Below are positions 3,876 to 35,388 of a stretch of DNA of 43,870 bases, piece after piece. How positions within the stretch are numbered: position 1 is the stretch's first letter; each line of letters starts with the position of its first letter. This stretch comes from Chloroflexota bacterium (GTDB lineage: Bacteria; Chloroflexota; Anaerolineae; UBA4142; SHND01), in assembly GCA_029778615.1 (NCBI GenBank), contig JAKOPZ010000097.1, positions 1 to 43,870 on the forward strand, read 5' to 3'. The position numbers and the translations under genes were made by a program. The notes under the pieces were generated by a model. That model searched no databases. It worked only from the letters and a program-made list of their open reading frames with translations, and was not told where the DNA came from.

Positions 3876-4919
3876 ATGTTGATAGCCCGCGCTCCGGTTC
3901 GGATTTCCTTTGCGGGTGGCGGCACCGACCTCCCCGCGTATTATGAACAATTTGGTGGCTGCGTCATCAGCACTTCGATTGACAAATATTTTTACGTCAT
4001 TTTGCAGCCCAGTCCTGATCCGACCCTTCAAATCACCTCTTCGGATTACCAAACTTTTTTTCGGCAGAACGCGGACCCCGCGTCCGAATTTTTTTGGGAA
4101 GGGACGCTCTCGCTGCCGCGCGCGGTGCTGCATCATTTCGGCGTGACGCGCGGGGTTTCCATGTTCCTCGCCTCCGAGATTCCACCGGGCACAGGACTTG
4201 GCTCCTCCTCCACCGTTACCGTCGCCATCGTCAAAGCCATCTCGACTGCCAAGGGGCTCAAACCGTCACCGTACGAAGTCGCGGAGCTCGCGTCCTATAT
4301 TGAAATTCAAAAAATGGGCATGCCGATTGGGAAACAAGACCAATACGCCGCCGCGTTCGGCGGATTGAACCGCATCGAATTTACGCGCGAAGGAACGCGC
4401 GTGCTGCCGCTAAAGCTGCCCGTGAAAACGCGCAGCGCGCTGCAACAAAATATCATGCTCTTTTTCACGGGCAGCACGCGAACGGCATCGGATATTTTGA
4501 GCCAACAAAAAAAAGCGTCAGAAAACCAAGACCCCAAAGTGATAGACGCCCTGCATGCGGTCAAAGAATTGGTGCCCGTTGTGCAGCAAGCGCTGGAACG
4601 CGGGGATGTGAATGCGCTCGGCGATATTTTGCACGAGTCGTGGGAACGCAAGAAAAAATTCGCGACGAATGTTTCCAATGCGCGCATTGACGAACTGTAC
4701 ACGCTGGCGCGCCGTCACGGCGCGCGCGGTGGAAAAATTGCCGGTGCCGGCGGCGGCGGTTTCTTGATGTTGTTTTGCGCGCCCGATTATCAAGATGCGG
4801 TGACGCGCGAACTGGAGGATGCCGGACTCAAGCGCATGGCATTTCATTTTGAGGATGGCGGCGCCAAAGTCTTGATGAACGCGGGACTGCGCTTGAACAG
4901 CAAGAGCACGGACCATTGA
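3876..4919 (+). CDS. GHMP-family sugar kinase, HddA-like
   Basis: 347 residues. RAPVRISFAGGGTDLP (5-20) is the family N-terminal signature. The phosphate-binding PGTGLGSSS loop is at 104-112, and a C-terminal AGAGGGGFLML motif is near 290-300. This combination matches the D-glycero-D-manno-heptose 7-phosphate kinase (HddA) and fucose/galacto-kinase-like branch of GHMP kinases, which phosphorylate a sugar before nucleotide activation. No partner isomerase, phosphatase or nucleotidyltransferase is seen in the window, so the exact substrate is open. ATG start just downstream of a -10-like hexamer with no Shine-Dalgarno site. First gene after the terminator at 3656, so likely the head of the main transcription unit. 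Confidence 0.82.
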   Translation: MLIARAPVRISFAGGGTDLPAYYEQFGGCVISTSIDKYFYVILQPSPDPTLQITSSDYQTFFRQNADPASEFFWEGTLSLPRAVLHHFGVTRGVSMFLASEIPPGTGLGSSSTVTVAIVKAISTAKGLKPSPYEVAELASYIEIQKMGMPIGKQDQYAAAFGGLNRIEFTREGTRVLPLKLPVKTRSALQQNIMLFFTGSTRTASDILSQQKKASENQDPKVIDALHAVKELVPVVQQALERGDVNALGDILHESWERKKKFATNVSNARIDELYTLARRHGARGGKIAGAGGGGFLMLFCAPDYQDAVTRELEDAGLKRMAFHFEDGGAKVLMNAGLRLNSKSTDH

Positions 4920-4963
4920 TGGAAAAAAAGTACGAGGGTACCAAGCAGCGGGAGGGGGTATCC

Positions 4964-6397: not shown

Positions 6398-6460
6398 TTT
6401 TTTCGCGGGGTCAATCCCTGTTACCAACTTTTGGTTGTATCCCCTCTTCAGGAATGTGGA

Positions 6461-8854
6461 ATGAACGATACGGAAACTTTACAAGCATCGTTGACCGATG
6501 AAATTGATATTGGTCGTTATCTCACAGTATTTGCTCGCTGGTGGCGTCTCATCCTCGCGTGCGCCATTTTGGGAGCGCTGGCTGCGTTTGGTTTCGGCTT
6601 GGTAAGCGCCAAGTCATACGAGGCAAACGCGTATGTGGTTTTGGTGCGAACCTCGACGATTGTAAACCTCGATTCCAAAATCCGTACGGTATCGAATACG
6701 GACCCCACTTCCGGGCAAATATTGGACCAAGCCTCACTGCGCAAGGCATTGGCTTCCATTGCCAACAGCGAAGATATCGCGCAGGTAGTTTACAACTCGC
6801 TGCAGACCCAATTGGCGCCCGGCATTGAGGATGCTGGTCAACTGCACCGCGTGGTCGACGTAACCAATGACGGCGATACGATTCAAGTTACGGTGCGCTC
6901 CAAAGACCCCGCACAGGCGGCGCTGATTGCCAACACGTGGTCCAAAGAGTTTGTCACGCGCGCCAATTCCATTTACAGCGATAGCCCGATTTCCGTTGCA
7001 AACTTGGTGGACCAAGTGCAGACCGCGCGCAACGATTATGATGCCAAAGAGGCAGCTCTCGTCGCGTTCGTGCGCGATGGTCATGTTCAAACTGTACAGC
7101 GCAAACGCGATGAAAAGAGTCGTATCCTGCAAACGTTGGTGTTTGGAAAAACAACGGCTGTGCAGGCAGTGCTTACCGAAACGCAACAGGTCCAAATTCG
7201 CCTTTTGCGTGATTACTTGAGTGCGATTGGGAATACGCGTTCCACCGTCTTTACGCAACAAGTAACGGCGCGTACGCAGAAACTGGTAGACTCGTATAGT
7301 CTCTTGCTCAAGCTCGAACGCCTATTGGGTAATGCCCAAGCCCTGCGCGCGCGCATGGCGCAGTCATCTTCCCAGGTACAGCCGGGCACTGACCTGGCGC
7401 TTGTTCTGCTCGAATCCAGCGCGTTTACGACGTGGGCAGAGCTGCCGGTCAGTCTCCAAATCCCCATCACTGAACTCAATAGTGGCAAGAGTACGGCGGA
7501 ACAACTCCAAGCTCTGGACAGTTTGATTGCCGAGATTCAGACGCAGCATACCTCCATTCAAAAACAAATTGACGATGCTTCGCGTGTGTTGCTCAGCGAT
7601 ACGGGCTATGCCTATTTGGATGCAAACACCTCTGACCCTTCCTCCCCGCTTAGTGCGGCGATTCAATCGCGCGTGCAAGCGCTCTTGAATCTCGACGGTT
7701 TGGAAGATATTGCTTCCTACGAGAGTTCTGATGCAGCAGTTGTGGCAGCCATTGACACATTGCAAAAAGACATAAATGGTCTCAATGCAGAGATTGAAGT
7801 GGAAAATGCCAAACAGCGTGATTTGACGCGCGCGCGTGACCTGGCGTGGGACACGTACACAGCGCTTGCAAACAAAGTTGCCGAGTCCCAAGTCACAGCA
7901 GATTCAAGCGGAAGCATTGTGCGGGTGGCTGCCTCTGCCGTTCCACCGACCCAACCGGTTGCCAGCGGACTGAGCCGGACTGCTTTGGGTTTGCTCTTGG
8001 GACTGTTTGTGGGGACGGCTCTGGCATTTATTCTAGAGTTTTTCGTGACGGCGTTCCCCGATGCGTCGCATGTCAAGCGCGCCCTCAACCTGCCGACGCT
8101 TGCGACAATTCCCGCATTCAAGTCCGCGCCCGGGCAGGCGAATTTGCCGCGCCCCGTCCTGGAAGCATTGCGTGGATTACGCTTTCAATTGTTCGACGCA
8201 AACAAAGCGCGCGCGGTAATGGTCACGAGCGCTTTGGCAGGCGAAGGCGTCACCACCACCGCGTCGAATTTGGCAACCGTTGCCGCACAGGGCGGCATGA
8301 ATGTTTTGTTGATTGATGCAAATTTGCGCGAACCGACAGTGCATTCCAAGTTCAATCTTGAAATGGCGCCCGGGCTCTCCAATCTTTTGACCAAGGGTTC
8401 AGGGACGGACCTGCAATCCGGTGCATACACGCACGCGGTCAACGCAAATCTTTCTGTTCTCACAGCGGGTTCGCCCGAGTCCGACCCGGCGGCAGTTTTG
8501 CAGCACAAGACATTCGAATTCTTGATACAGCACGCCAAAGAAAAATTCGATTTGGTCATTATGGACGCCCCGCCGGTCAACGGAACGATTGATGCCATGG
8601 AAATCACCCGCGTGGCGGACGGTGTGCTCTTGGTGATTGACAGCGCGGACACGCCGCGCGCCGCCGTGCTTGACGCGAAAGCAGAATTGGCTGCCTCCGC
8701 TACACCCATTTTGGGCGCGGTGCTGAATCGCACCGGACGCGTGACGGCAGACGAAACGCGGGGGGCGAAATCGGACGCAGTGCCCTCCCGAACAATGTTG
8801 TCGGGTTTACGAACGTGGTTCTTGGATTTGGTTGGACCGCGTTCAGGAACATAG
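6461..8854 (+). CDS. Wzz chain-length protein fused to a BY-kinase-like domain lacking the Walker A lysine
   Basis: 797 residues. A Wzz-type N-terminus with a first membrane helix at about 30-55 is followed by a long periplasmic, coiled-coil-rich part (about 60-490), a second helix near 505-535 and a cytoplasmic BY-kinase-like domain. The Walker A position reads GEGVTTT with V597 where the family has lysine (codon gtc 8249-8251). The A' motif LLIDANLREP and Walker B-like LVIMDAPP are present. The C-terminus has no tyrosine cluster. Wzz/BY-kinases set chain length of exported polysaccharide and couple export to ATP-dependent phosphorylation; here the ATPase is probably impaired. Start at 6461 fits an AGGA site 8-11 bases upstream. 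Less GCG-biased than its neighbours. Confidence 0.87.
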   Translation: MNDTETLQASLTDEIDIGRYLTVFARWWRLILACAILGALAAFGFGLVSAKSYEANAYVVLVRTSTIVNLDSKIRTVSNTDPTSGQILDQASLRKALASIANSEDIAQVVYNSLQTQLAPGIEDAGQLHRVVDVTNDGDTIQVTVRSKDPAQAALIANTWSKEFVTRANSIYSDSPISVANLVDQVQTARNDYDAKEAALVAFVRDGHVQTVQRKRDEKSRILQTLVFGKTTAVQAVLTETQQVQIRLLRDYLSAIGNTRSTVFTQQVTARTQKLVDSYSLLLKLERLLGNAQALRARMAQSSSQVQPGTDLALVLLESSAFTTWAELPVSLQIPITELNSGKSTAEQLQALDSLIAEIQTQHTSIQKQIDDASRVLLSDTGYAYLDANTSDPSSPLSAAIQSRVQALLNLDGLEDIASYESSDAAVVAAIDTLQKDINGLNAEIEVENAKQRDLTRARDLAWDTYTALANKVAESQVTADSSGSIVRVAASAVPPTQPVASGLSRTALGLLLGLFVGTALAFILEFFVTAFPDASHVKRALNLPTLATIPAFKSAPGQANLPRPVLEALRGLRFQLFDANKARAVMVTSALAGEGVTTTASNLATVAAQGGMNVLLIDANLREPTVHSKFNLEMAPGLSNLLTKGSGTDLQSGAYTHAVNANLSVLTAGSPESDPAAVLQHKTFEFLIQHAKEKFDLVIMDAPPVNGTIDAMEITRVADGVLLVIDSADTPRAAVLDAKAELAASATPILGAVLNRTGRVTADETRGAKSDAVPSRTMLSGLRTWFLDLVGPRSGT

Positions 8855-8855
8855 A

Positions 8856-10145
8856 GTGACGCGCACTTTGTCTTGGCGGCGCGCTGCAACCCTGATTGCC
8901 GATAATGAATCTTGGCTGGTCTGGGTTTACGGCGTGCCGCTTTTAATTTCAAGCAGCATTCCGCTTTGGCTTTTGGCGGGGGCTTTGGGCACGGTTCCGC
9001 TTTTTTGGTTCGCGCGTCGAATCGCTCGCGGGCAGTGGTCGGTCAACACTCCGCTCGGGCTGCCGATTGGTTTGTTTCTGGTTCTCGGTTTGATGGCTGT
9101 TGCGGTTTCAATAGACCTGCTGCTCAGTGTGAGATTGTATGCAGAATTTGTTGGCGGCGCGGCGCTGTATTTTGGAATTGTAAATGGGTTGAGTGGGAGC
9201 AAGGTTGAAAATGCAAACGCCTCGCGCGCGGAGGGCAAACGCTTTGCGCGCGTATTGTGGGTCCTCCTGGCGATTGTCCTCGCGATGGGTTTCGCCGGCG
9301 CGTTGGGTCTGCGTTTTTCAGACAAATTCTTGCCCGTGCAGTTGTATCCGTATCTTCCCAAATTCGATTTTTCGATTTTTAATCCGCGCGGCTTTACGCC
9401 CAACATTGTCGCGGGCGCGATTGCTCCGGCGGTTCCGCTATGCTGGCTGTGGGGCTGGCGCCAACCGCGTGCATGGCGCGTGGTGTTGTACGGCATTTCG
9501 TTTTTCTTGTTGGGGGTGATTGTGTTGACCCAATCGCGCGGCGCGGTGATTGGCATTGCGGTGAGCGCTGCCTTGATTGCCTTCTGGCTCAAGCCGCGCA
9601 TCGGATGGGTCATTGCTGTTTTGCTTGTCGGCGCGACGGCGTTGTTTCTTGGCATGGAAGCAAATCGCGCGGTAGATTCATCACCGGACGACTCGACGGT
9701 CACGGCAGCAGGACGCTTTGAATTGTGGTCGCGCGCGCTGTATATCGCGCAGGATTTCCCATTTACGGGAATCGGCTTGGGTACTTTTTCGCAAGTGGTC
9801 CCCGTGATGTATCCGCTGTTTATCAATAGTCCCGACGCGCCGATACCGCACGCGCACAATATGTATTTGCAGATGGCAGTAGATTACGGTGTCGGCGGTT
9901 TTGTGGCATTTGGCGGAATGGTGCTGACCGTTCTTTTGCTCGGCGCGGTCACCTTGAAACGCACGCGCGCCGCGCCAAGCGAGCTGCTGGTAACGGGACT
10001 CGTCGGCGGCTATATCGTTTTTTTGGCGCATGGCATGCTCGATGCAGTGGTGGTGAGCACCAAAGTAAGTGTGGTGATGTGGATAATGGTCGCGCTCTTG
10101 ACGGTGCTGTATCGGAATACCTTACCCGGCGCGCGATATGAATGA
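8856..10145 (+). CDS. O-antigen ligase/polymerase-like membrane protein (Wzy/WaaL superfamily)
   Basis: 429 residues with about 10-12 hydrophobic segments. The second half carries the PF04932-type features: SRGAVIGI after a transmembrane helix, a GIGLGTFSQV loop, and PHAHNMYLQ with the conserved histidine pair in a long outer loop. Enzymes of this type polymerise undecaprenyl-linked repeat units or ligate them to an acceptor in the outer leaflet. Position directly after the Wzz/BY-kinase gene argues for polymerase. Start taken as GTG 8856, one base after the upstream stop and 7 bases after AGGA. A second protein of this superfamily is at 36792. Confidence 0.82.
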   Translation: MTRTLSWRRAATLIADNESWLVWVYGVPLLISSSIPLWLLAGALGTVPLFWFARRIARGQWSVNTPLGLPIGLFLVLGLMAVAVSIDLLLSVRLYAEFVGGAALYFGIVNGLSGSKVENANASRAEGKRFARVLWVLLAIVLAMGFAGALGLRFSDKFLPVQLYPYLPKFDFSIFNPRGFTPNIVAGAIAPAVPLCWLWGWRQPRAWRVVLYGISFFLLGVIVLTQSRGAVIGIAVSAALIAFWLKPRIGWVIAVLLVGATALFLGMEANRAVDSSPDDSTVTAAGRFELWSRALYIAQDFPFTGIGLGTFSQVVPVMYPLFINSPDAPIPHAHNMYLQMAVDYGVGGFVAFGGMVLTVLLLGAVTLKRTRAAPSELLVTGLVGGYIVFLAHGMLDAVVVSTKVSVVMWIMVALLTVLYRNTLPGARYE

Positions 10146-12352: not shown

Positions 12353-13438
12353 ATGCGTCTCGCCCTCGTTCACGAATATTTTTGCAATCTCGGCGGCGCG
12401 GACACGGTGGCACGCGTCTTGCACGAAATGTTTCCCGACGCGCCGGTGTACACGCTCCAGGTGTATGACCGCCATCGCACGCACGAATGGCTGCGCGGCA
12501 TGGAACTGCGCACGTCGTTCATTCAACGTTTGCCGTTCGCGGGACGCACGCATCAAATGTTTTTGCCGTTGATGCCCTACGCGATTGAACAATTCGATTT
12601 TTCGGGGTACGATATAATTGTTTCGTCGTCGAGTTTTATCGCCAAAGGTGTGATTCCGCCGCCTCACGCGCGACACATTTCGTACACCCACACGCGTCAG
12701 CGCGTCGCGTGGGATTTGGAATCCGAGTACGTGAATGCGATTCCGCGCCCGCTCCGAATTTTCGCGCAAGCGTACATGCACCAATTGCGGCAGTGGGATG
12801 TGACGGCGGCGCAGCGGGTGGACCAATTTGTCGCCAATTCCAATTTCGTCGCGCAGCGTCTAGAGCAATTGTATCGGCGTGATGCAGTGGTCCTTTATCC
12901 GCCGGTGGACACACAAACGTTTGCGCCGTTGAATGTGCCGCGCGAGAATTATTATGTGGCAGTGGGGCGGTTGGTGAAATACAAACGCTTTGATTTGGCG
13001 ATTGCGGCGTGCAAGGAATTGAAACGCGAGCTGCGTATCATCGGCGATGGACCCGAACGCGGCGCGTTGGAAAAAATGGCGGACGCGCACATTCGCTTTT
13101 TGGGCACGCAAACGCACGCGGCAATTCGGGAACAATTGGCGGGGGCGCGAGCGTTATTGTTTGCAGGGCTTGAAGATTTTGGCATTGTGCCTGTCGAAGC
13201 GCAGGCGATGGGCTGCCCGGTGATTGCGTTTGGCGCCGGCGGGGTGTTGGACACGGTGCGCGCGGACGAAACGGGCGTTTTGTTTGCGGAACAATCAGTC
13301 CCGGCATTGGTGCACGCGATGCGGCGCGCGGACGCATTGCGTTGGGATGAAAAACTCTTGCGCGCGCAGGCGGAACAATTTTCGACGCAAAATTTTAAAA
13401 CGCGTTTTTTGAATTTGCTTGCTCCATACAATGTATGA
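12353..13438 (+). CDS. GT4 family glycosyltransferase (WbaZ/mannosyltransferase-like)
   Basis: 361 residues. The N-terminus MRLALVHEYFCNLGGAD is typical of the WbaZ-like group of retaining GT4 enzymes, with HTRQRVAWDLESEY near 117-130. The C-terminal GT-B domain has YVAVGRLVKYKRFD and the EX7E motif EDFGIVPVE. Members add mannose, rhamnose or similar residues from GDP or dTDP donors. ATG start right after the heptamer repeat; the stop overlaps the next ATG by 4 bases. Confidence 0.86.
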   Translation: MRLALVHEYFCNLGGADTVARVLHEMFPDAPVYTLQVYDRHRTHEWLRGMELRTSFIQRLPFAGRTHQMFLPLMPYAIEQFDFSGYDIIVSSSSFIAKGVIPPPHARHISYTHTRQRVAWDLESEYVNAIPRPLRIFAQAYMHQLRQWDVTAAQRVDQFVANSNFVAQRLEQLYRRDAVVLYPPVDTQTFAPLNVPRENYYVAVGRLVKYKRFDLAIAACKELKRELRIIGDGPERGALEKMADAHIRFLGTQTHAAIREQLAGARALLFAGLEDFGIVPVEAQAMGCPVIAFGAGGVLDTVRADETGVLFAEQSVPALVHAMRRADALRWDEKLLRAQAEQFSTQNFKTRFLNLLAPYNV

Positions 13439-14847
13439 ACCTGATTCCGAATGATGTCCCGCGCGCGCGTTGGGGCGGCGCGGTTTTGTGGCTCGGCGAT
13501 GTACTGTGCGCGCTTGCCGCGATGGCGTTGGCGGATGGACTGCGCCGCGTGCTGCCGTTTGGCGCGCCCGCCGACCGTTTTTACGTGACCCCCGACGTAC
13601 TGCTGTTGGTCGCGTTGATTTGGTCGGCAGTCTTTTATTTTTTGGGAACGTACGAACGACGTCAGCGCGATGAATTGCGCGTCGAAATGCGCGCCGTGTT
13701 TCTTGCGTCCACATTTGCTTTGTTCACGCTGGCGGCGGCGCTGTATTTTTTCAAGATTGAAAATTTTTCGCGCGTCCTGTTTCTCTATTTTTACGCGCTC
13801 GATGTTGTGTTCACGGTGGCGTGGCGTTTTGGTGTACGCACACTGCGCGCGCGGGGACATGTGGCGGCGGAACCGCGCCGCGCAATTATCGTCGGCACGG
13901 ACGCGACGGCGCAAGAGCTCGCCGCGCAAATTCAGATGTGGCAGGGCTATACGTTAGTCGGATTCATTGCCGAGAATGAAAGTGTGGACGCGACGTTTCC
14001 CGCGCCGCTGTTGGGCACGCTGGCGGATGCGCTGCGAATTGTGGACCATGAAAATATCGGCGATGTATTTTTATCGCAGACGACGCGCGGGCGCGCGGAA
14101 TTGGCAGAATTGATTCTTGCTTTGCGCGAGCGGCGCGTGCGCGTGCGGCTCATGCCCGATTTGTTGGAATTGATTACGGTGCGCACCGGCATCGAATCCT
14201 TGCGCGGACTGCCTTTGATTACCCTGCGCGAACCGGCGATTACGGGTGTCAACAGTGTCTTGAAGCGCGCGCTCGACCTTGTGGGCGCGTCGCTGTGTCT
14301 GCTGCTCGCCGGACCCTTGATGCTCGTCGTCGCGATTCTCATTCGAATGGATTCCAAAGGTCCGGTTTTGTTTTCGCAGGAACGCGCGGGGCAGTACGGC
14401 AAACCGTTTCGTATGTACAAATTTCGTTCGATGGTGCAAAACGCGGAACAATTGTTGGATGGGTTGGTGAAATTGGACGAACTGCAAGAGCCGCATTTCA
14501 AGCTGCGAAATGACCCGCGTGTGACTCGTGTGGGCGCGTGGCTGCGGAGAACGTCGCTCGATGAACTCCCGCAGTTGTTTAATGTGTTGAGTGGTTCGAT
14601 GTCGCTCGTCGGTCCGCGCCCCGAAGTGATGCGCCTCGCCACGCGCTATTCCCCGGTACAGCGGCAGCGCTTGTTGGTGAAACCGGGCATGACGGGCGCA
14701 ATGCAAATCAGCGGACGCGGCGACCTTTCGTTTGACGAACGGATGAAGTTGGAAATGGACTATATCGAAAATTATTCTATCTGGCGCGATGTGGTAATTT
14801 TGGTAAAGACCGTGCCCGCTGTGTTGAGCGGACGCGGGGCGTACTGA
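13435..14847 (+). CDS. Polytopic polyprenyl-phosphate hexose-1-phosphate transferase
   Basis: 470 residues with the full WbaP/WcaJ layout. Four N-terminal helices (about 10-125) precede a nucleotide-binding-like domain (AIIVGTDATAQELAAQI, about 148-250), a fifth hydrophobic segment near 280-305, then the catalytic domain with YKFRSM, SLDELPQ (D376-E377), SLVGPRP and VKPGMTG. All catalytic motifs are intact, unlike the homologue at 4964. It loads the first sugar phosphate on undecaprenyl phosphate in the inner membrane and is the best candidate for the initiating enzyme of the first assembly set. ATGA overlap with the preceding GT4 gene and a one-base overlap with the following glycosidase gene place it in one unit with both. 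Confidence 0.9.
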   Translation: MNLIPNDVPRARWGGAVLWLGDVLCALAAMALADGLRRVLPFGAPADRFYVTPDVLLLVALIWSAVFYFLGTYERRQRDELRVEMRAVFLASTFALFTLAAALYFFKIENFSRVLFLYFYALDVVFTVAWRFGVRTLRARGHVAAEPRRAIIVGTDATAQELAAQIQMWQGYTLVGFIAENESVDATFPAPLLGTLADALRIVDHENIGDVFLSQTTRGRAELAELILALRERRVRVRLMPDLLELITVRTGIESLRGLPLITLREPAITGVNSVLKRALDLVGASLCLLLAGPLMLVVAILIRMDSKGPVLFSQERAGQYGKPFRMYKFRSMVQNAEQLLDGLVKLDELQEPHFKLRNDPRVTRVGAWLRRTSLDELPQLFNVLSGSMSLVGPRPEVMRLATRYSPVQRQRLLVKPGMTGAMQISGRGDLSFDERMKLEMDYIENYSIWRDVVILVKTVPAVLSGRGAY

Positions 14848-16403
14848 TGAAACGAAAACGTAAGCTCTTGTTCGGTCTGCTTTGCCTGACTCTGTGCACG
14901 CTCATCGGCTTGACGCGTTCTGTCCATGTTTCCGCGTCAAGTGTGTCGGCAGAAATCACGCCGCGCATTTTTTTACCCCTCGTCTCGGGACAATTAAATT
15001 TGCAGCCGCCCGCCGTATCACTCTTTGGCGCGAGTGACTCGAATAGCTTTACCATGTCGCGCTCGCCGCAAGGAATGACGCTTGCCGCCACCGCCGGAAT
15101 GTCGGGCGTTCGCACCAGCGTCGCGTGGGCGGCGATAGAGCCGGTCAAAACATCACCACCCCAATTCCATTGGCAGAGCGCGGATGCTGCACTTGTGCCG
15201 CTGTTACAGCAAGGTTTCTCTCCGCAGGTTTTGATTCTTGCCAATCCGACGTGGGCGGCGAGTACGCCGTGTGGTCCGCTCTATGACCCGAATTACATTG
15301 CCGACTTTGTCGCGGGGTTGGGCGCGCGCTATCCGCAGGTCAAGTATTGGGGCTTGTACAACGAGGTTGACCTTACCACATATAGCAATCACCACTCGCA
15401 CAATGGCGGATGTTTTGGCGAACCCGACCTGGACCAAAACGGCAAACCTGACTATGCCGACTATGCGGAATTGATGCGTGTGGCGTGGCGCGCCCTGCAT
15501 GGGGCAAATCCGGAGGCAAAGCTCGCGTTTGGTTTGTTGGCGCACGATAACTTTGACCCAAGGGATTCGCCGCCGGGTTATCCTGGCGGCTGCTGTTTCG
15601 CGTATTCGTTTGCCGACAATCTCTTTGCCTATATGCAAGCGCATCCTCTGCCCGCCGGAGAGCAGTACGGAGATATTCTGGGCTTTAACAATTACATGAT
15701 TTACGACCGCGCGTTCTGGGAACACTATTATCCCGGCGATGGCATTTCCTCCAAAGCCAACTCACTGCAAATGCGAATGTCGCAATACGGCTTGGCGTTC
15801 CCGATGCTCACGAGCGAAATTTCTGCGACTTCGACCCATCCGGATTTTCCGTTCAGTTTTGTGCAGCAAGCACGCGACTTGGCGCTTCTCTATATCCAAA
15901 GCGCGGCGAGCGGATTGGAACAAAGTATTTGGTGGACGTTCGCGGATATGCCGAGTACGTGTTCCAACGCCGAACTTGTCGCCGCGCACCCCACGCTGGC
16001 GCGCATTGCAAAAGCGCGCGTGCCGGAAAATCTTTGGCTGCTGCCGGAGAAACCGCCAAGCGCGGACAGTTGCGCCACGTGGACGTTTGGAATTGTGGAT
16101 GAACACTTGAAACCCAAGCCGTCTTTTTTCGCGTTCAAAACAGTGCAGGAACAACTCGGCGGTTGGACTTTCTCAAAGGTCGTCAACAAGAACGGCTTGT
16201 TTATGTACGTTTTTACGCGCGATGGAAAACAAAAACGCGTCTACTATGTCAAAGATGGCGCGGTGCGCACCTTACATCTCAAAGCCAAACGCGCGGTGCA
16301 TGTGAATGTGTATGGCACACAGGCAGTGCTCAAGCCAAACGCTCAAGGCAAAGTCACGTTCAGTGTTGGATTGGAACCCGTCTATTTGGAACTCGTTCGT
16401 TAG
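14847..16403 (+). CDS. Secreted PslG-like glycoside hydrolase, clan A (paralogue 1 of 4)
   Basis: 518 residues. A signal peptide (basic start, hydrophobic core, likely cut near residue 30-35) is followed by a TIM-barrel domain. Predicted acid/base is E173 in WGLYNEVD after strand 4 and nucleophile E324 in MLTSEISA after strand 7, the clan GH-A arrangement. NPTWAASTPCGP and GGCFG supply C142 and C189, a likely disulfide kept in all four paralogues. A canonical calcium loop follows (D194, D196, N198, D202, D205). WWTFADMP is near 362-369, then a small C-terminal beta domain. By analogy with GH39-like PslG it would cleave or edit the locus's own polysaccharide outside the membrane. Starts inside the stop of the sugar transferase. 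Confidence 0.8.
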   Translation: MKRKRKLLFGLLCLTLCTLIGLTRSVHVSASSVSAEITPRIFLPLVSGQLNLQPPAVSLFGASDSNSFTMSRSPQGMTLAATAGMSGVRTSVAWAAIEPVKTSPPQFHWQSADAALVPLLQQGFSPQVLILANPTWAASTPCGPLYDPNYIADFVAGLGARYPQVKYWGLYNEVDLTTYSNHHSHNGGCFGEPDLDQNGKPDYADYAELMRVAWRALHGANPEAKLAFGLLAHDNFDPRDSPPGYPGGCCFAYSFADNLFAYMQAHPLPAGEQYGDILGFNNYMIYDRAFWEHYYPGDGISSKANSLQMRMSQYGLAFPMLTSEISATSTHPDFPFSFVQQARDLALLYIQSAASGLEQSIWWTFADMPSTCSNAELVAAHPTLARIAKARVPENLWLLPEKPPSADSCATWTFGIVDEHLKPKPSFFAFKTVQEQLGGWTFSKVVNKNGLFMYVFTRDGKQKRVYYVKDGAVRTLHLKAKRAVHVNVYGTQAVLKPNAQGKVTFSVGLEPVYLELVR

Positions 16404-16426
16404 CGGCGCGCTCGAGTAAACGCGAA

Positions 16427-16455
16427 TTGGACTTGGATTGGAGCTCGGTTATACT
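16427..16455 (+). promoter_or_regulatory. Sigma-70-type promoter inside the cluster
   Basis: TTGGAC (16427-16432), a 17-base spacer, then TATACT (16450-16455). The predicted start near 16462 leaves only about 6 untranslated bases before ATG 16468, so the mRNA would be nearly leaderless. No Shine-Dalgarno site is present. Good consensus match and spacing. Confidence 0.65.
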
Positions 16456-16467
16456 CGCTTGTACGTT

Positions 16468-17946
16468 ATGGACCAAGCCACGCTTTCCCCGTCTGCCCAC
16501 GGGACATCATTCGAGCTGCAAGAACGCGCGCTCACCTCAATTCGGGCATTGCCTCTTTTACTCGCCATCATCACATTGGCGCTCGGGCTCGTTTATCTCG
16601 CGGTGATTCCGCCGTGGGGCGGACCCGACGAGCCGCGTCATTTTGAATATGTACAATTGTTGAATGAAAAAGGGCGTCTCGTCAGTTGGGCGGATGTTGA
16701 CCAGCCGGTGATGGAGCGCATCATTCGTTCGATGGATGCGGTCAATTACTGGCAGTGGGGCGTCTCGGTGTGGAAGCGCACGAAACCGGGAGAACTCCCA
16801 AAAGATTTCAACGCCATCTACGCGGAGGGCGCACATCAGCTGCATCAACCACCGCTCGCGTATCTTTTGTACCTCATCCCATACAAGTTGGCGCCGAACG
16901 GTGAGATTCTGGCGCAGCTGTACGCGATGCGCTTGCTTTCCATTGTGCTCGACATTGTGACCGTGTTGGCGGCGTACGTGGCGGGACGCGAAATTTTTCG
17001 GAATGACCCGACGATGGCGTTGGCGATTCCCGTGTTTATCATGCTGCTGCCGCAACATCTTTTTTTGCACAGCACGGTAATGAATGACCATCTTGTGGAA
17101 GCCGCGCTCGCGTGGATGATTGCGGTCATGGCGCGCACGTTTCGACTCGGCTTGTCCCTGCCGCGCATTGTGTTGATGCTGCTGCTGCTCGGCATTGGGC
17201 TCGCGGCAAAACGCAACGCGTTGTACGGCGTGCCGATTTTGGGATTCGGCTTTGTCGTGTACGCCATCACGCATTGGGGCAAGCACATGAGCGCGACGCA
17301 AAAAAGTATTCGCCTCGCGCTTACGGTGATTGTCCTCGCGCTCGGCGCGGCGGGACTGGTTTGGACGTGGGATTGGATTGCGGTCAACCAACCGAAACTC
17401 GCGGAATACATCGTCCGACTGTTTTTGTTTTTGCCGAGCGAACAATTTCCGTTTCAATTGGATGCGCGCATTATTCAACCTGCCGCGCTCCCGCTCTATG
17501 CGAGCTATATCAAGTACGTGTTTATCAGCACGTGGGGTCATTTTGGTTGGATGAATATTACGCTCGGCGTGCAGGCGTATTGGGGCTTTGCCGCGTTGAG
17601 TGTCTTTGCCATTGTCGGTTTGCTGTGGTACACCGTGCGCGATTTTCCCAAATTGGAAGCATGGCAGCGCGCGGCGCTTGCGGCGTTTGCCGCGTGTGTG
17701 TTGGTCGCGTTTCTTTTGGTCATCGCGCTTCAAGTGCGCTATTGGGATTTGGGTTGGGGCGGTGACCCGCAAGGGCGCTATCTCTTTCCGGTGTTGATTC
17801 CAATGGCGACACTCTTTTTGCTCGGCACACGTGCCTTTGTGCCGCGCGCGCGTTACATTTGGTGGTTTGGCGCATTGGTCGTACTGATGGTCGTTTACAA
17901 CATCGTCGCACTGGGCGTGTTTATCATTCCGTTCTATCGCGCTTGA
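16468..17946 (+). CDS. DUF2142/GT-C-like polytopic membrane protein
   Basis: 492 residues and about 10-12 membrane helices. After the first helix comes PPWGGPDEPRHFEY, the signature loop of DUF2142 proteins. It is analogous to the acidic first outer loop of GT-C glycosyltransferases, which use polyprenyl-phosphate sugars on the outer face. It may add a side-branch sugar to the exported glycan; this is inference. Start at ATG 16468 is chosen because it lies just downstream of a good promoter (16427-16455). It sits between the first and second secreted glycosidases, which suggests a shared substrate. Confidence 0.75.
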   Translation: MDQATLSPSAHGTSFELQERALTSIRALPLLLAIITLALGLVYLAVIPPWGGPDEPRHFEYVQLLNEKGRLVSWADVDQPVMERIIRSMDAVNYWQWGVSVWKRTKPGELPKDFNAIYAEGAHQLHQPPLAYLLYLIPYKLAPNGEILAQLYAMRLLSIVLDIVTVLAAYVAGREIFRNDPTMALAIPVFIMLLPQHLFLHSTVMNDHLVEAALAWMIAVMARTFRLGLSLPRIVLMLLLLGIGLAAKRNALYGVPILGFGFVVYAITHWGKHMSATQKSIRLALTVIVLALGAAGLVWTWDWIAVNQPKLAEYIVRLFLFLPSEQFPFQLDARIIQPAALPLYASYIKYVFISTWGHFGWMNITLGVQAYWGFAALSVFAIVGLLWYTVRDFPKLEAWQRAALAAFAACVLVAFLLVIALQVRYWDLGWGGDPQGRYLFPVLIPMATLFLLGTRAFVPRARYIWWFGALVVLMVVYNIVALGVFIIPFYRA

Positions 17947-17978
17947 CGCGGCGTCGCAATTCCAAAAGGGGGTTCTGC

Positions 17979-19520
17979 ATGAACGCTTGGAAAATTTTGG
18001 TCCGCTCGTTACAAATTGGCTTGGGCTTGAGTGCGCTCGTTGTGCTCGCGTCCGGTTCGGTGTTTCCTGCGCGGGCGCTCGCGCGCACCGCGCCGCGCCC
18101 ATCGCTCCAAAACGAAAACGCGCGTCCGGCAGCCGTACCGCTCGGCGTCGTCACTGTTTTAGGGATTGATGACGGCGGCGTCATTTCCGATAAACCGGAA
18201 GCGCAACAGCTCGCCGGCGCGGTCGGCGTGAAATGGGTGCGTACTGCCGTGAGCTGGGCAGCTATCGAGCCAACACAGGGCGTGTACGATTTCACCTCCA
18301 GCGACAAAACTTTGAACAATCTCTTGAACGCCGGACTCTCGCCGATTGTGTACGTTGCCGACAATCCGGCATGGGCGGCGAACACCGCGTGCGGACCGAT
18401 TGACACCAAAGACGCGGGCAAGCTGGACTCATTCAAAAATTTGCTCTCTGCCCTCGCCGCGCGTTATCCCACCATCGAAGCATGGTCGCTGTATAACGAA
18501 GTGGATGAAATGTTCGTTCGCGTGGACAATCGCTATGGCGGCTGCTTTGGCGACCCATCGAAAGGCGGTGTCAACAAAAACAAAGTCCGCGACTATGTGG
18601 AATATGCGATTTTGCTCAAGACTGCGTGGGAGGCGATACACACAGCGAATCCTTCGCCGAACGTCAAACTCTTGATGGGTTCAATGGCGTACGATAGTTT
18701 TGCGCCAAAAGATTGCCCGCCGCTCTATCCCGGCGGTTGTGTGGGCGGCGCGTTCTATTATAAATTTGCGCCGAACCTTTTTGCGTACATGAAAAAGCAC
18801 AAACTCACGACCGGCAAATACATGGACGGCGTGACGTTCAACTATTACGACATTTACGGACGCTACTGGGAAAAGTACGCACCCGGACACGGCATCCAAG
18901 CGAAAACAAACATCATGCGCCAATTGATAAAGAGCGCGGGGATTCCGGTCGCGCCGCTTTATGTGACCGAAACAGGCAACAATTCGTACTATTTGGGTCT
19001 GCCGGGTCAAGCGCGTTGTCTCGAAATTATGATGGTGCGCGGCATCACGGCAAAATTAAAAGGCGTGGTGTGGTGGACGTTCCGCGATTATCTCGATTCC
19101 AGTCCTCCGCCGTCCAATACCAACAAGTACGGGATTGTGGACCAGAACCTTCAACCCAAACCTTCCTACACCACACTGCAAACATTGGCGACAGAGTTGA
19201 ACGGCTTCAAGTTCAAGAAAAGTTTCAGCGGCACCCCGGGCTTTGCCGACGTGGAAGCATATCGCTTCAAAAACGGCAAGCAGCTAAAATTTGTCGTGTG
19301 GTCGTCCAAAATTCAGACCGCGAGCCCCGCGCCGGAGTGCTCGTGGGCGCGCGCGACCCGCGTGGCAACATTCAATGCCACGAAACTGCGCGTCGTGACG
19401 TTTTTGAACAAGGTCAAAAACGTCAAAGACAATGCCAAAAAAGACCTCGACAAGCGCCCCGGCATCATTGCTATCAACGTTACCGGCAGTGCCCTGATTG
19501 TCGAAATCAATCCCCAATAA
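17979..19520 (+). CDS. Secreted PslG-like glycoside hydrolase (paralogue 2 of 4)
   Basis: 513 residues. Start at 17979 follows an AAAAGGGGG site. A signal peptide spans about 1-36. The GH-A barrel carries E174 (SLYNEVDE) as predicted acid/base and E331 (YVTETGNN) as predicted nucleophile. Cys pairs are C138/C189 (conserved) and C246/C254 around the PLYPGG loop. The calcium-loop insert seen in paralogues 1 and 3 is here reduced to GGVNKNKVRDYVEY, with the first acidic ligands gone. WWTFRD is near 366-371. The basic C-terminal region (about 400-513) differs most from the paralogues. Role as for paralogue 1: extracellular processing of the locus polysaccharide, inferred from family and place. 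Confidence 0.8.
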   Translation: MNAWKILVRSLQIGLGLSALVVLASGSVFPARALARTAPRPSLQNENARPAAVPLGVVTVLGIDDGGVISDKPEAQQLAGAVGVKWVRTAVSWAAIEPTQGVYDFTSSDKTLNNLLNAGLSPIVYVADNPAWAANTACGPIDTKDAGKLDSFKNLLSALAARYPTIEAWSLYNEVDEMFVRVDNRYGGCFGDPSKGGVNKNKVRDYVEYAILLKTAWEAIHTANPSPNVKLLMGSMAYDSFAPKDCPPLYPGGCVGGAFYYKFAPNLFAYMKKHKLTTGKYMDGVTFNYYDIYGRYWEKYAPGHGIQAKTNIMRQLIKSAGIPVAPLYVTETGNNSYYLGLPGQARCLEIMMVRGITAKLKGVVWWTFRDYLDSSPPPSNTNKYGIVDQNLQPKPSYTTLQTLATELNGFKFKKSFSGTPGFADVEAYRFKNGKQLKFVVWSSKIQTASPAPECSWARATRVATFNATKLRVVTFLNKVKNVKDNAKKDLDKRPGIIAINVTGSALIVEINPQ

Positions 19521-19586
19521 AAAAGTGTTGTGTTGAACTGCTCTTGAGTAAGTTGCTTTGCGCCGTGCGGACATCCTGTTTACGAA

Positions 19587-19632
19587 ACATGCTTTTATAC
19601 AGAGCCAAGTCTGTCGCGCCGGCAAAGCATGT
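19587..19632 (+). promoter_or_regulatory. Structured 5' leader hairpin ahead of glycosidase 3
   Basis: The outer stem is ACATGCTTT (19587-19595) with AAAGCATGT (19624-19632), 9 perfect pairs. It encloses a second hairpin ACAGA (19599-19603)/TCTGT (19610-19614) with a 6-base loop. Together with the terminator-like hairpin at 19650 it could form an attenuator or riboswitch-like leader. It does not match any riboswitch consensus I could recall. Confidence 0.5.
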
Positions 19633-19649
19633 ATGTTGAAAGGGAAACC

Positions 19650-19689
19650 AGCCAGCCGCAGCTGCTCTTTGTTGGCTGGCTTTTCATTT
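19650..19689 (+). terminator. Intrinsic terminator or attenuator directly before glycosidase 3
   Basis: AGCCAGCC (19650-19657) pairs with GGCTGGCT (19674-19681), 8 pairs with a 16-base loop, followed by TTTCATTT. It lies 9 bases before the ATG at 19698 and next to its AGGTG ribosome-binding site (19691-19695). It could therefore end the upstream transcript, or attenuate expression of the gene that follows. Confidence 0.65.
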
Positions 19690-19697
19690 GAGGTGCT

Positions 19698-21281
19698 ATG
19701 CGTTTTCGCCTAATTCCAATTCTTGTGCTCGGCGCGCTCGTCGCCGCAACCAATGCGTGTGCGTCGCCGACGCCGATTCCGCTCAATCCAACCGCTGTGC
19801 CAACGGCTCCCGCCGTCGCGCTCGCGACCACGCCGCCGACGCGCGTGCCGACCGTTCCGCCGACGGAAAACAGTTTGCCCACAAACGCGCCCGCGCCCAC
19901 TGATGCGATAGAGCCCACCGAACCACCCGCGTCGACTGAACCGCCTCCGCCGACAGAGGCACCGTCGCCCACCGTGCCTCCGGCAGTGCCCGCGTCGCCC
20001 GATTTTTTTGGCGCGAGCACGTATGGTGAAATCATTCATAACGACCAGGTGCGCGCGTTGGCAATCGTCGCGGGCGTACGGATGGTGCGTACCAGTGTGG
20101 ACTGGGCAAACATTGAAAAGAACAAAGGCGAGTTCAAATGGGGCGGCGCGGATGGCGCGTTAAAGCCGCTCCTCGAAAACAATCTCGTTCCGTTAGTTTT
20201 GATTTTGAACAATCCCGAATGGGCGTCGAACACCCCGTGCGGTCCCGTGAACGATTTGCTCGCGTTCGACGAATTCATGCGCGCCCTCGTCGGACGTTAC
20301 CGCAATGTGAAATATTGGGCGTTGTATAACGAACCCGATAATTCAAAATATCCCGCGCAGGTTGGTGGGGGCTGCTTTGGCGGCGCGGATTTGAACGGCA
20401 ATGGCAAGCCGGATACGCAAGATTATGCGGAACAATTGCACGTCGCGTGGCGCGCCATACATCAGACGAACCCCGACGCGGTGCTGGTGACGGGCGCGTT
20501 GGCGTTTGATAATTTTGATGAGGCGAGCGCGCCGCCGGGCTATCCGGGCGGAGGCAATGGCGGCTCGTTCAACTATAACTTTACGCACGACCTCATCGCC
20601 TATATGCAAGCGAACCCGTTGCCCGACGGCGAAAAATATTTTGACACGCTCGCGTTCAATTTTTACAGTATCTACGGTCCGTACTGGGAAAGTCAGGTGG
20701 GTAACGTCAACGTTGGCGCCAAAGCAGCAATGCTTCGCAAAATCATGAACGACGCGGGCATGGACGCGCCGTTGTTGGTCAGCGAGACCGGTTCCGATTC
20801 CGGCGGTGCAGGCAACGAGGGACAAAGCCAAAATGTGGTCAAACTGTTTACGCGCGGACTGGCGAATCATTTGACGCATATGGTGTGGTGGACGTTTCAG
20901 GATTTTCCCGATTCCGCGCCGCCGCCTTCCAATTTGTGGAAGTACGGACTCATTGACCAAAATCAAAATCCCAAACCTTCCTACGCGGCATATCAAACCA
21001 TCACGCGCCAATTGAGCGGCGCGGCGTTTTCCCAAGCGCTCCAAGTGCAAGGCGGCGAAGGATATCTCTTTACGCGCGACAATCAAAGCAAAGTGGTGGT
21101 GTGGTCCGCTTCCGATTCGCCCATCACGATTGCGTTTGCAGGCAAGACGCTCCATGTCACCGACATGTACGGCGCGGAACGCGTTGTCAATGACGGGAGC
21201 GCCGAAGACAACGACCAAACAGATGGACGCATTACGCTCGCAGTGACCAAGTCGCCGATATATGTCGAGGCGCCACGTTAA
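19698..21281 (+). CDS. Secreted, possibly lipid-anchored PslG-like glycoside hydrolase (paralogue 3 of 4)
   Basis: 527 residues. The hydrophobic N-terminus ends in TNAC (C21), a weak lipobox. A linker of about 75 residues rich in Pro, Thr and Glu (about 24-100) follows, then the GH-A barrel. This suggests a catalytic domain held away from the membrane on a flexible tether. Predicted catalytic residues are E212 (ALYNEPDN) and E363 (LVSETGSD). C181/C226 are the conserved pair; the second Cys pair is absent. The calcium loop is complete (D231, N233, N235, D239, D242). WWTFQDFP and a C-terminal beta domain follow. The only one of the four with a tether, and the only one behind an attenuator-like hairpin. 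Confidence 0.8.
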   Translation: MRFRLIPILVLGALVAATNACASPTPIPLNPTAVPTAPAVALATTPPTRVPTVPPTENSLPTNAPAPTDAIEPTEPPASTEPPPPTEAPSPTVPPAVPASPDFFGASTYGEIIHNDQVRALAIVAGVRMVRTSVDWANIEKNKGEFKWGGADGALKPLLENNLVPLVLILNNPEWASNTPCGPVNDLLAFDEFMRALVGRYRNVKYWALYNEPDNSKYPAQVGGGCFGGADLNGNGKPDTQDYAEQLHVAWRAIHQTNPDAVLVTGALAFDNFDEASAPPGYPGGGNGGSFNYNFTHDLIAYMQANPLPDGEKYFDTLAFNFYSIYGPYWESQVGNVNVGAKAAMLRKIMNDAGMDAPLLVSETGSDSGGAGNEGQSQNVVKLFTRGLANHLTHMVWWTFQDFPDSAPPPSNLWKYGLIDQNQNPKPSYAAYQTITRQLSGAAFSQALQVQGGEGYLFTRDNQSKVVVWSASDSPITIAFAGKTLHVTDMYGAERVVNDGSAEDNDQTDGRITLAVTKSPIYVEAPR

Positions 21282-21305
21282 GCGGACAAAACAAGAAAGG
21301 CAAAA

Positions 21306-22766
21306 ATGTTTCGAATTCTCAAACGTTTGACAGCACTGGTCTTGGCTCTTGCACTTGGGCTGGTGATTTCGCGCGCCGCACCCGTGCTGGCAGATGGACC
21401 CATCACCTCAGAATACTTTGCGCTCGACGACGGCGGAGTCACATCGCAAAGCGAAACGCGCTTAAATCTCGCGCGCGACGTCGGCGCGACGAGTCTGCGT
21501 CTGGCGCTGTATTGGAGGTCTGTCGAGCCGCTTGACACCGCCGCCGAGAGTTTTAACTGGACCTATACCGACAAATATTTCCAACCCGTTCTGAACGCTG
21601 GACTGGCGCCGCTTGTGTACATCACCGAGAATCCCGCGTGGGCGGCGAATACGCCGTGTGGTCCCATTGACACCACGAACCCTGCGCTGGTCACCGCGTT
21701 CGCGGATTTTATGGGCGCGTTGGCGACGCGTTATCCCGAAATCAAAATCTGGGGACTGTACAACGAATCGGACAACAGCCGCGTTTCACAACACACCGGC
21801 GGCTGTTTTGGCGATGACGTCACAGGCGATGTCAATACTAACGGCGTGGCAGATTACGTCGAGTACGCCGAGATGTCCAAGATTGCGCGCGCGGCAGTCC
21901 ATCAAGCAAATCCCGATGCCAAAGTCGCCATGACCATCGCGTTTGACGATTTTGATAACATCACCTGTCCGCCCGGTTACCCGGGAGGATGTCCGCCGCT
22001 TTCGCACTTTAACTATAATTTCTTGCCGAACCTCTTTGCCTATATGGCGGCGAATCCGCTCCCCGAAGGTGAAGCGTATGCGGACTTGCTCGCCTTTAGC
22101 TATTACGATATTTACGGCGGCTATTGGCAAAATCAACCCAGCGGCGCGGGCAAACACGGCATTCAGGCAAAGGTCGCGGCGATTCGTCAGCGCATGACCG
22201 ACGCGGGCGTATCCATTCCGCTCTATGTCACCGAGACGGGCAGTGATTCCAAGCCCGCCGGTTTGGAGGGACAGAGTCGTTGTCTCGCGCTCGCGTATGT
22301 GCGCGGGATGGCAGTGGATTTGAAAACGATTGTGTGGTGGACACTTGTGGACAATGACACGTGGGGTTGGTACTATGGACTGTTGACCTCCGACAACAAC
22401 TTGAAACCTTCGTATCACGCGTACCAAACCGTCTTTAATGAATTGAACGGCTGGACATACCGCAGTGTGTGGAAAAAACACAACAAGGCGGAAGGATACA
22501 AATTTGTCCGCGATGGGCAAATGAAATGGGTGCTTTGGTCCAACGTCTATGCCACCGACCAAGGTGTGCCATGCGCGCGCGCGCGCGAGGTCAAGCGCGT
22601 GAATCTTGACGCGAAACGGCTCACCATCGTGGACTTGTACGGAAACGCGCGGCTGATTCGGGACAACAAACCGGGAGACCTGAATCCCAAAAAAGGACGC
22701 ATTGGTTTTCTCGTAGACGGGTCGCCTCAATACGTGAGCATCACCCGCTTTCCCAAAGCGAAATAG
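21306..22766 (+). CDS. Secreted PslG-like glycoside hydrolase (paralogue 4 of 4)
   Basis: 486 residues. A signal peptide ends near APVLA (25-29). The mature protein is almost only the GH-A barrel and a short C-terminal beta part. Predicted acid/base is E154 (GLYNESDN) and nucleophile E310 (YVTETGSD). C118/C167 are the conserved pair, and C221/C229 flank PPGYPGG as in paralogue 2. The insert loop reads D175, N177, N179, D183, E186, still compatible with calcium. The aromatic motif near 344-349 is WWTLVD. It lies 24 bases after paralogue 3 and is probably co-transcribed. The four paralogues share order of motifs and spacing, so they arose by tandem duplication. Confidence 0.8.
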
Positions 22767-22875
22767 TCAGGAGTGTTTGTCATGCTCCGCACCTTTCCCA
22801 ACGCATCGTCCGTTTTTTCTTTTAACCGCCGTCCCGGAAATTTTCTTTTCCCCCCTCCATGTGGGCAATGACCAC

Positions 22876-23745
22876 ATGATTTCCGTCTGCATTGTCAGTT
22901 ACAATACGCGCGCGCTGTTGGAAAAATGTCTGCGCGCGCTCGAACGCGCGGACGCTGCGTCCGCATTGGACCTTGTTGTCGCCGATAATGCCTCGCGCGA
23001 TGGCAGCGCCGAAATGCTCGCGCAGCAATTTCCGCGCGTGCGTTTGATTCGCAACGCGCAAAATTTGGATTACACGCGCGCGATGAATCAGTGCCTGAAA
23101 CTGGCGCGCGGCGAATGGCTCCTCTTGCTCAATCCCGACACCGAACCCCAACCCGACGCGCTGCGCGAATTACAGCGCGCCCTGGAACGTCACGCGGATT
23201 GGGGCGCAGCGGGCGCGCGTCTGGAATTTGCTGACGGTTCGCTGCAACGCACCGGCGCGCGCTTTCCGACGCTTTTGTATTTGATGTATGAAGCATTGGG
23301 CGTGAACGCGCGCGTGCCGCACAATCGCGAACGCGCAAAATATCTCTATGCAGACTGGGACCGCGCGACGGGACGCGCGGTGGACGCGTTGTCGGGCGCG
23401 TGTCTCATGGTGCGGCGTGCGGTGCTCGAACAAGTCGGTCTCTTGGACGAACGCTTTGTGATGTATGCGGAAGAAGTGGATTGGTGCAAGCGCATGGCGG
23501 CGCGCGGATGGCGCGTGGGCTATGTGCCCACCGCGCGCGTGCTGCATCATGCCGAACAAAGCGCGCGCCAAATTCCCGATGCGCGCCGCAACGCGCTGTA
23601 CGAAAACAGCACGGTCGAATACACACGCAAATATTTCGGCGCACCCGCCGCGTTTTGGATACGCGGAATTTTTCGTGCCAAAGAATTCGCGCGCCGGTTC
23701 AACCCGCGCGCGCTGCCGATTCATTCACACGAGGCGCTGTTATGA
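22876..23745 (+). CDS. GT2 family glycosyltransferase, rhamnosyltransferase-like
   Basis: 289 residues starting [19 protein letters not shown], the GT-A fold entry of inverting GT2 enzymes. The metal/nucleotide motif is in [14 protein letters not shown] (about 75-88), and [13 protein letters not shown] plus [16 protein letters not shown] form the acceptor region. This matches the WbbL-like rhamnosyltransferase group; the donor is not provable. The start at 22876 is where homology begins; the preceding 109 bases are T-rich with no clear promoter. ATGA overlap with the flippase gene. Confidence 0.87.
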
Positions 23746-25286
23746 GCGGCGCGCGCTTGTTTCGCGCGACGACGCTGCTCGCGTTGGCGAACGCGCTCGC
23801 GCTCGGCATCCAATTTCTCACCACCGTTTTGATTGCGCGCGAATTTGGCATCAGCGCGCAGATGGACGCGTACGCGCTCGCGATTTCCATTCCCGAATCG
23901 CTCCAGTATGTTTTGCTGCTGGCGAGTTTGAGCATCATTTTCACGCCGCTCTTTATCGCGGCACGTGACGCGCATGGCGAAAGCGAAGCATGGAGTGTGG
24001 CATTGTCGCTGCTGCTGTTGGTCGCGGGCGCGATGCTGGTGGTGATTCCGTTGCTGTGGGCGGCGATGCCGTGGGCGATGTATGTTTTAGCGCCGGGCTT
24101 TGCGCCCGAAACGCGCGCCCTCGCAGTGGAATTGGCGCGCTTTATTTTGCCCGCGCTCTTGTACTATGCGACGGCGGGTTTGCTGCTCGGCATTTGTTTT
24201 GCGTACCACGATTTTACGACGGCGACGCTCAACACGATTTTGTTTGCGCTCTTGAACCTTGTCGGTTTTTTTTTGTTCGTCCAGATTTTCGCGTGGGGCG
24301 TGTTTGGTTTGATGGCGGGGCGTCTCGCGGCGCTCGGCATTCTGGAAATTTTTTTGCTCGCGCGCGTCCTGCGCCTCAAACGTGAAATCCCCGCGCGGAT
24401 TCATTTGCGGCACCCGCAAGTACGAATGATGTTGAGCTATTTGCCGCCGTACACGTTCGGCGCGTTGAGCGGACAGCTCCAACTCATTGTGAGCCGCAGT
24501 CTGGTGTCAACGCTCGGCGGCGGCAGTGTCGCGGCGTGGGGCTATGGACAGCGGCTCGCGGATATTCCGATGGCGGTGGTGGGCGGCGCATTCGGCACAA
24601 CGTTCTTGCCGTCGTTTGCGGAACGCGTATCTGCCAATGACAGACCCGCCGCGCGCACACATTGGAACAATGCGATTCTGCGGATGGCTCTGTTGCTCGC
24701 GCCCGTTGCAGCGCTGCTCGTCGCGCAGGCGGTCCCGCTCATCACAGTACTGTTTCAACGCGGTTCCTTTGACGCGCGTTCAACGCAAGAGAGTGCGCTC
24801 GTATTGACGGGGCTTGCGCTGGGTTTGCCCGCGCGCGGGATTGGCGCACTGGTCGCGCGCGGCTTGCCTGCATTCAAAACGCGGCGTGTGCCGCTCCTCC
24901 TTTCCGCGCTTGCCACCGCGCTCATTATCGCGTTCGCATTTCTTTTCATCGCGCCGCTCGGACTGTTTGGGGTTGCCCTCGCGACGGCGCTCGGCGAAAC
25001 GGCGTTTGCGTTGGCGGGCATGTTCGTCTTTGCGCGTTGGCTCGGCGCCACGTATCGCGCGAACGCGCGCGGCATGTTGAAAATTTTTTTGGCGGCGGGT
25101 GCGGTGTTTTTACTGAATCTCGCGGTGGTCGCTTGGCTTGCCGTGCCGCTTATGCAAGTGCTGGTCGGCGGCGCGTTGGGCGCGCTGCTGTATATTGCGC
25201 TGGGGTACGCGTTCCGAATTGCGGAAATTCGCATGTTGCCGCAAATAGTTGTGAACACGGTGGCGCGATGGCGAGCGCGCGCATGA
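23742..25286 (+). CDS. MurJ/MviN-type lipid-linked oligosaccharide flippase
   Basis: 514 residues and about 13-14 membrane helices. The start [19 protein letters not shown], the [18 protein letters not shown] segment and the central [27 protein letters not shown] stretch (about 262-290) are typical of the MurJ branch of the MOP superfamily. In this context it most likely acts as the Wzx-type flippase for the undecaprenyl-linked repeat unit, being the only flippase candidate of that class in the window. A housekeeping lipid II flippase is the alternative. It starts in an ATGA overlap with the GT2 gene. Confidence 0.84.
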
Positions 25287-35365: not shown

Positions 35366-35366
35366 C

Positions 35367-35380: not shown

Positions 35381-35388
35381 CTGTACAA

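Follow-up and report, generated by a model that had tools for sequence, protein, structure and literature searches.

The window, which is the whole stretch of 43,870 nucleotides analysed here, carries a polysaccharide biosynthesis locus with a set of four hydrolase genes embedded in it. The biosynthetic context claimed in the original prediction is real: a Wzz plus BY-kinase chain-length/export regulator (6431-8854, plus strand), two Wzy_C genes including an O-antigen ligase/polymerase (8832-10145, plus strand), a MurJ/Wzx-type flippase (23736-25286, plus strand), four Bac_transf genes and many GT1 and GT2 glycosyltransferase genes were found, together with genes for an epimerase-type enzyme, a GHMP kinase and a methyltransferase. 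The slot holding the hydrolases has conserved borders, formed upstream by a Bac_transf initiating sugar-phosphate transferase (13435-14847, plus strand) and downstream by a GT2 glycosyltransferase (22777-23745, plus strand). The four Bac_transf genes lie at 623-1450, 4916-6397, 13435-14847 and 35314-36795, and the two Wzy_C genes at 8832-10145 and 36792-38150, possibly reflecting two polymers or alternative starts of the repeat unit.

As predicted, the slot contains four paralogous open reading frames on the plus strand, which encode full-length proteins with pairwise identities of 40-45%. Types A (14847-16403, 518 aa), B (17979-19520, 513 aa) and D (21306-22766, 486 aa) are PslG-like secreted glycosidases, and type C (19698-21281, 527 aa) is a PslG-like glycosidase with an additional tether. 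The acid/base and nucleophile glutamates are E173 (codon at 15363) and E324 (15816) in A, E174 (18498) and E331 (18969) in B, E212 (20331) and E363 (20784) in C, and E154 (21765) and E310 (22233) in D. The expected signal peptides were borne out by a single hydrophobic segment at the N-terminus of each protein, with no second TM-like segment in any of them. A frame or ORF artefact was ruled out, as the frames are matched by profile and by intact orthologues.

The span 14847-22766, assigned to glycosidases in the original prediction, is not made up of hydrolases throughout, because a multi-pass membrane protein with 9 TM-like segments is encoded within it (16438-17946, plus strand). This protein has no Pfam match, but a homologue from a different family of the class (L075:11146-12636) was recognised as DUF2142 with an E-value of 1.4e-10; the window protein is likely a GT-C-like glycosyltransferase. 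DUF2142-like proteins are the steadiest neighbours of the hydrolases across the Anaerolineae, occurring in about half of the loci examined, and a functional pair of the two is possible. The genes are closely packed: A starts on the last base of the upstream transferase gene, 32-34 bases separate the membrane protein gene from A and from B, and the gaps are 177 bases between B and C and 24 bases between C and D. The promoter scan gave no excess over shuffled sequences, and the terminator-like sites were mostly weak and intragenic. Judging from the spacing, a single transcript is likely, although the 177-base gap counts against it.

Searches of Pfam and NCBIfam with the hydrolases yielded weak matches to GH42, GH39, GH10 and GH5. 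Type B matched Pfam GH39 (PF01229) with 25 bits (E 1e-5), short of the 26 bits set as the curated cut-off, and GH42 with 25.6 bits against a cut-off of 21. Types A, C and D had no match to PF01229 at E 0.01, and no curated family claims any of these three. Because of these weak matches, the family was named by structure and profiles. PslG was the first PDB match of a profile built from A-D (E 4e-14) and of a profile of 31 relatives (E 2e-26). In the alignment with the latter profile, the glutamates of the YNE and [ST]E motifs are aligned with residues 139 and 250 of the PslG chain. By the author's count (offset 26) these are Glu165 and Glu276, the acid/base and the nucleophile of PslG, respectively (PMC11912335; PMC9075953). 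PslG itself belongs to CAZy family GH39 (PMC11912335).

Prediction of the mature part of type C from 31 sequences gave a model with a pLDDT of 93.2 and a pTM of 0.92, composed of a barrel and a C-terminal beta domain; an early model from a 4-row alignment reached a pLDDT of 60 and was discarded. Structural comparison of the model, suggested by the original prediction as a check, revealed a Bacteroides GH39 enzyme (5jvk, Z 33.4) and PslG (Z 32.1) as the closest folds over 370-376 residues, well above other GH-A folds, the next entry having a Z of 26.1 and the GH39 xylosidase 2bfg a Z of 24.6. The catalytic glutamates, whose loss would have spoken against the assignment, are retained in the model, N116-E117 following the strand 111-115 and E268 lying within the strand 264-270. 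Both are present in A-D and invariant in the 31 relatives and the 20 genus proteins. On the model, the hydrolases thus show the retaining pattern of clan GH-A, with a barrel, an Asn-Glu after strand 4 and a Glu at strand 7, and A-D are PslG-group GH39-like by predicted fold and by sequence, type C from its own well-predicted model and A, B and D from their 40-45% identity. The motifs NPxWAxxTxCGP, GGCFG and WWT occur in all four as described (the gene at 17979 reads TACGP), but they are family-wide across the class and not specific to this locus.

The conserved disulfide pair noted earlier corresponds to C142/C189 in A, C138/C189 in B, C181/C226 in C and C118/C167 in D. Both cysteines (C86 and C131 in model numbering) are invariant in the 31 relatives and present in all 20 genus proteins, marking a hydrolase family found mostly in Chloroflexota. 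However, it is one pair among several, since the types carry extra Cys pairs. Cys284 together with a C-terminal cysteine is found in exactly the 11 proteins of types B and D and of a fifth copy (C347 and the C-terminal Cys in window B), D of the window having two more pairs in total; Cys183 and Cys191 are both present in the same five proteins, and four additional cysteines occur in exactly the three A proteins. Such all-or-none sets are what disulfides would give and support a predicted extracytoplasmic location. Other positions near the active site are also fixed by type. Residue 118, just after the acid/base E117, is Pro in C, Val in A and B, and Ser in D; residue 270, two past the nucleophile E268, is Ser in A and Gly in B, C and D. 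The loop after strand 8 is short in D and longer in A.

An EF-hand/dockerin-like stretch resembling a Ca-binding loop, DLNGNGKPDTQD, lies in type C at 20388-20423 (plus strand), 3' of the acid/base Glu and the GGCFG loop. The equivalent stretches are at 15426-15461 in A and 21828-21863 in D, and at 18567-18602 in B, where the loop is degenerate; its first Asp is missing in most type B copies. The pattern D-x-[DN]-x-[DN]-G-x-x-D-x-x-[DE], which was derived from the same sequences and denotes a likeness to Ca loops in sequence, was matched by 15 of the 20 proteins of the genus clade versus none of the 24 outside it.

Type C differs in its N-terminal region. The signal with a lipobox-like Cys is followed by a Pro/Thr-rich tether (about 19770-19982; 54% P/T across residues 25-95), the catalytic barrel (19983-21017) and the C-terminal beta domain (about 21024-21278). 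In all five congeneric C proteins a regular lipobox precedes the Pro/Thr-rich stretch. The window copy keeps the Cys but reads ATNAC, in which the Asn at -2 fails the lipobox pattern. The linker proposed for one of the copies is therefore that of the gene at 19698, but the feature is better called a lipoprotein anchor, off-consensus in the window copy, and type C is by descent a predicted tethered lipoprotein. A membrane-tethered copy would also suit transglycosidases, which would mainly move cut chains to new acceptors for cross-linking or surface attachment instead of hydrolysing them; the retaining GH-A chemistry permits transfer and the conserved aromatics are compatible with it. However, no sequence signature seen here separates transferase from hydrolase, and PslG is reported as a hydrolase (PMC11912335), so we consider this explanation very improbable.

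In a tree of 44 sequences, the genus proteins form a single clade (100/100) with the four types A-D. Orthologues of B and C were found in all six genus species in a fixed order, A in three and D in four. The five congeners each have three hydrolases in tandem, with B in the first slot and C in the second, while the third holds D in G002, G003 and G004 and A in G001 and G005. The window genome alone of the six has both A and D, its A lying upstream of the membrane protein gene at 16438. From the tree, A-D are ancient paralogue types that appear older than the split of the species, a conclusion new to this work. Synonymous sites among the paralogues are near or at saturation. Recent tandem duplication was rejected on the basis of the 40-45% identity, the synonymous saturation and the age of the types relative to the species. 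Orthologue pairs with usable synonymous divergence gave dN/dS values of 0.18-0.26, indicating that the copies have been maintained under purifying selection.

These data bear on the explanation that the copies are interchangeable duplicates, retained by chance or to supply more enzyme, with no divided labour. Membership of one family, identical residues in the catalytic centre, one apparent direction of transcription and the frequency of tandem duplicates in the class would all agree with it. A recent increase in dosage, however, predicts similar copies, like the two close sisters in G262, and the types are older than the species split and differ in type-specific residues, Cys pairs and anchoring while keeping a fixed order. 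Dosage or drift is therefore improbable in our judgement. The ancient type-specific divergence deduced from the sequences, together with purifying selection, agrees with the processing of several linkages or with one polymer being trimmed in stages.

The third slot varies between the species. The ribosomal-protein tree separates G000, G003 and G005 from G001, G002 and G004, and A and D each straddle this split; therefore both were either ancestral with later losses or exchanged. The A genes of G001 and G005 are sisters, contrary to the ribosomal-protein tree, and a PMT_2-type membrane protein (50% identical between the two) lies beside A in both loci and was not found in the other four. Simple vertical loss was rejected as the sole account of this slot, since A and D each cross the split and the two A genes group against the ribosomal-protein tree. 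The sister A genes and their common PMT_2 neighbour, seen in two species, favour exchange of a two-gene cassette between lineages, which is as likely as loss. The swap between A and D and the PMT_2 gene beside A suggest that the third slot follows side-chain chemistry. In G001, the transferase and the DUF2142-like gene are separated by a transposase-like ORF (L056:12181-13116) and by an ORF of 314 aa (13175-14116), the latter of which resembles another glycosidase core and has no Pfam match.

The surrounding locus is conserved as well. Nearly all genes from the one at position 50 to the second Wzy gene keep their order in G002 and G004; G003 and G005 show the same order with more gaps, and the contig with the G001 locus is short. 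The possibility that different hydrolases serve two different polymers would agree with the presence of four initiating transferases and two Wzy_C genes, all of which have counterparts in G002 and G004. Nevertheless, the hydrolases occupy one slot and are not divided between the two halves of the locus, and species with three hydrolases retain both Wzy genes, which makes this possibility rather improbable.

Beyond the genus, a member of the hydrolase family was found at E <=1e-45 in 69 of 298 genomes of the class. The position of the hydrolases within a synthesis locus is conserved by synteny in the five congeners and by slot order in G080 and G107, the order being sugar transferase, DUF2142-like membrane protein, one or more hydrolases and GT2. 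In the family of the latter two genomes (f30), it reads transferase, DUF2142-like, GH, GH, GT2, GT1, and the GH pairs are not part of the genus clade; therefore the expansion of the slot was independent. In other families, the order Wzy, DUF2142-like, GH, LPG_synthase_TM is common. With the best 5 candidates taken per genome, pairs on the same contig occur in several genomes and families, G188 has at least three copies, and four neighbouring copies are found in the window only among the matches listed; related bacteria have one to three hydrolases at the corresponding place. The statement that EPS loci usually carry one such enzyme is true of psl, but in this class sets of several copies are found repeatedly, and the four copies of the window are the extreme of a trend, not an isolated case. 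One further hydrolase, on a contig binned as Halieaceae of the Pseudomonadota (L049:7728-9149), has the neighbour order seen in the Chloroflexota genome G033 and its closest relatives in the family of that genome; mis-binning is more likely than transfer.

The family is also found elsewhere. A fifth, more distant paralogue is encoded on another contig of the same genome (C84, L005:1492-4050; 852 aa), in which a PA14 domain is followed by a Thr/Pro/Arg repeat linker of about 200 residues and a hydrolase with both glutamates. It adjoins a hybrid histidine kinase, and no homologues of the window EPS genes were found within the 16 kb read around it. Several members of the wider family, including this copy, have no recognised EPS genes nearby, so the occurrence of the hydrolases is not restricted to EPS loci. 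In Caldilineales and relatives, some hydrolases of the family are fused to SdrD_B/SpaA-like repeats (L044:7761-10868, L054:7770-10652), which suggests surface display. Relatives with PA14 or SdrD_B domains away from recognisable EPS genes, and a gut-symbiont GH39 (5jvk) as the best fold match, could point to enzymes that break down polysaccharides from outside the cell and whose genes lie in the locus by chance or through co-regulation. Yet the window genes include neither a sugar transporter nor SusCD-like import genes, the position between initiating transferase and flippase is kept in six species, and a second family has the slot as well. Foraging is accordingly quite improbable.

We therefore favour the reading, with a probability of roughly 0.6, that A-D are exported retaining beta-endoglycosidases which process the polymer of their own locus. 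The four enzymes would work beyond the membrane, and their target would be the polysaccharide that the Wzx/Wzy-type locus around them produces. Type C, lipidated and attached through its flexible Pro/Thr tether, would trim or release nascent chains at the membrane, as is proposed for membrane-bound PslG, and the freely exported A, B and D might cleave this polymer at different linkages or decorations, or at a later stage in the matrix. The enzymes would then divide their roles, by analogy with PslG and with the two glycanases of Sinorhizobium meliloti; that the four have distinct specificities is somewhat short of an even chance. We also propose, as an unlikely extension, a modular tailoring in which a matched set of lipid-anchored and free endoglycosidases are each fitted to a linkage or decoration and exchanged with the matching glycosyltransferase (A with PMT_2, or D). 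If true, the hydrolase set would record the structure of the polymer.

Why synthesis loci encode a hydrolase for their own product has been studied mostly through single enzymes such as PslG, PelA and BcsZ, and our literature searches on multi-copy PslG-like sets or on Anaerolineae EPS hydrolases returned nothing direct. The present results suggest that such polymers are tailored by an enzyme set, not by a single enzyme. Four long-maintained paralogues offer a natural comparison, with the same fold and locus and with different anchoring and active-site surroundings. Should A-D prove to differ in specificity, hydrolase sets could become an aid in predicting the structure of polymers from uncultured bacteria, and A-D would be candidate tools for specific cutting of polysaccharides.

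The closest known system is PslG from Pseudomonas aeruginosa, a GH39 enzyme of the psl operon, reported to be a hydrolase with endo-beta-glucanase activity (PMC11912335). PslG and A-D have in common a GH-A fold with a C-terminal beta domain, both glutamates and a gene within a polysaccharide operon, and PslG is membrane-associated like type C. However, psl has one copy versus four in the window, PslG has a Phe at the position of the invariant C86, and its aligned stretch contains no EF-hand-like insert. The anchoring also differs, PslG being reportedly held via PslA/D/E (PMC9075953) and type C by a predicted lipid and a Pro/Thr tether. BcGH39 from Bacteroides cellulosilyticus (5jvk), the best structural match to the C model with a Z of 33.4, is a gut symbiont enzyme according to its entry title. 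In S. meliloti, two glycanases, ExoK and ExsH, act on succinoglycan with overlapping but unequal roles (PMC4916376). This system resembles the window in having more than one glycanase per EPS, but it consists of two enzymes and not of an ordered set of four paralogue types. ExoK and ExsH belong to GH16, a family other than that of the window hydrolases. PelA, PgaB and BcsZ/CcsZ are likewise hydrolases encoded with the synthesis genes of their own polymers, and they are single-copy members of other families.
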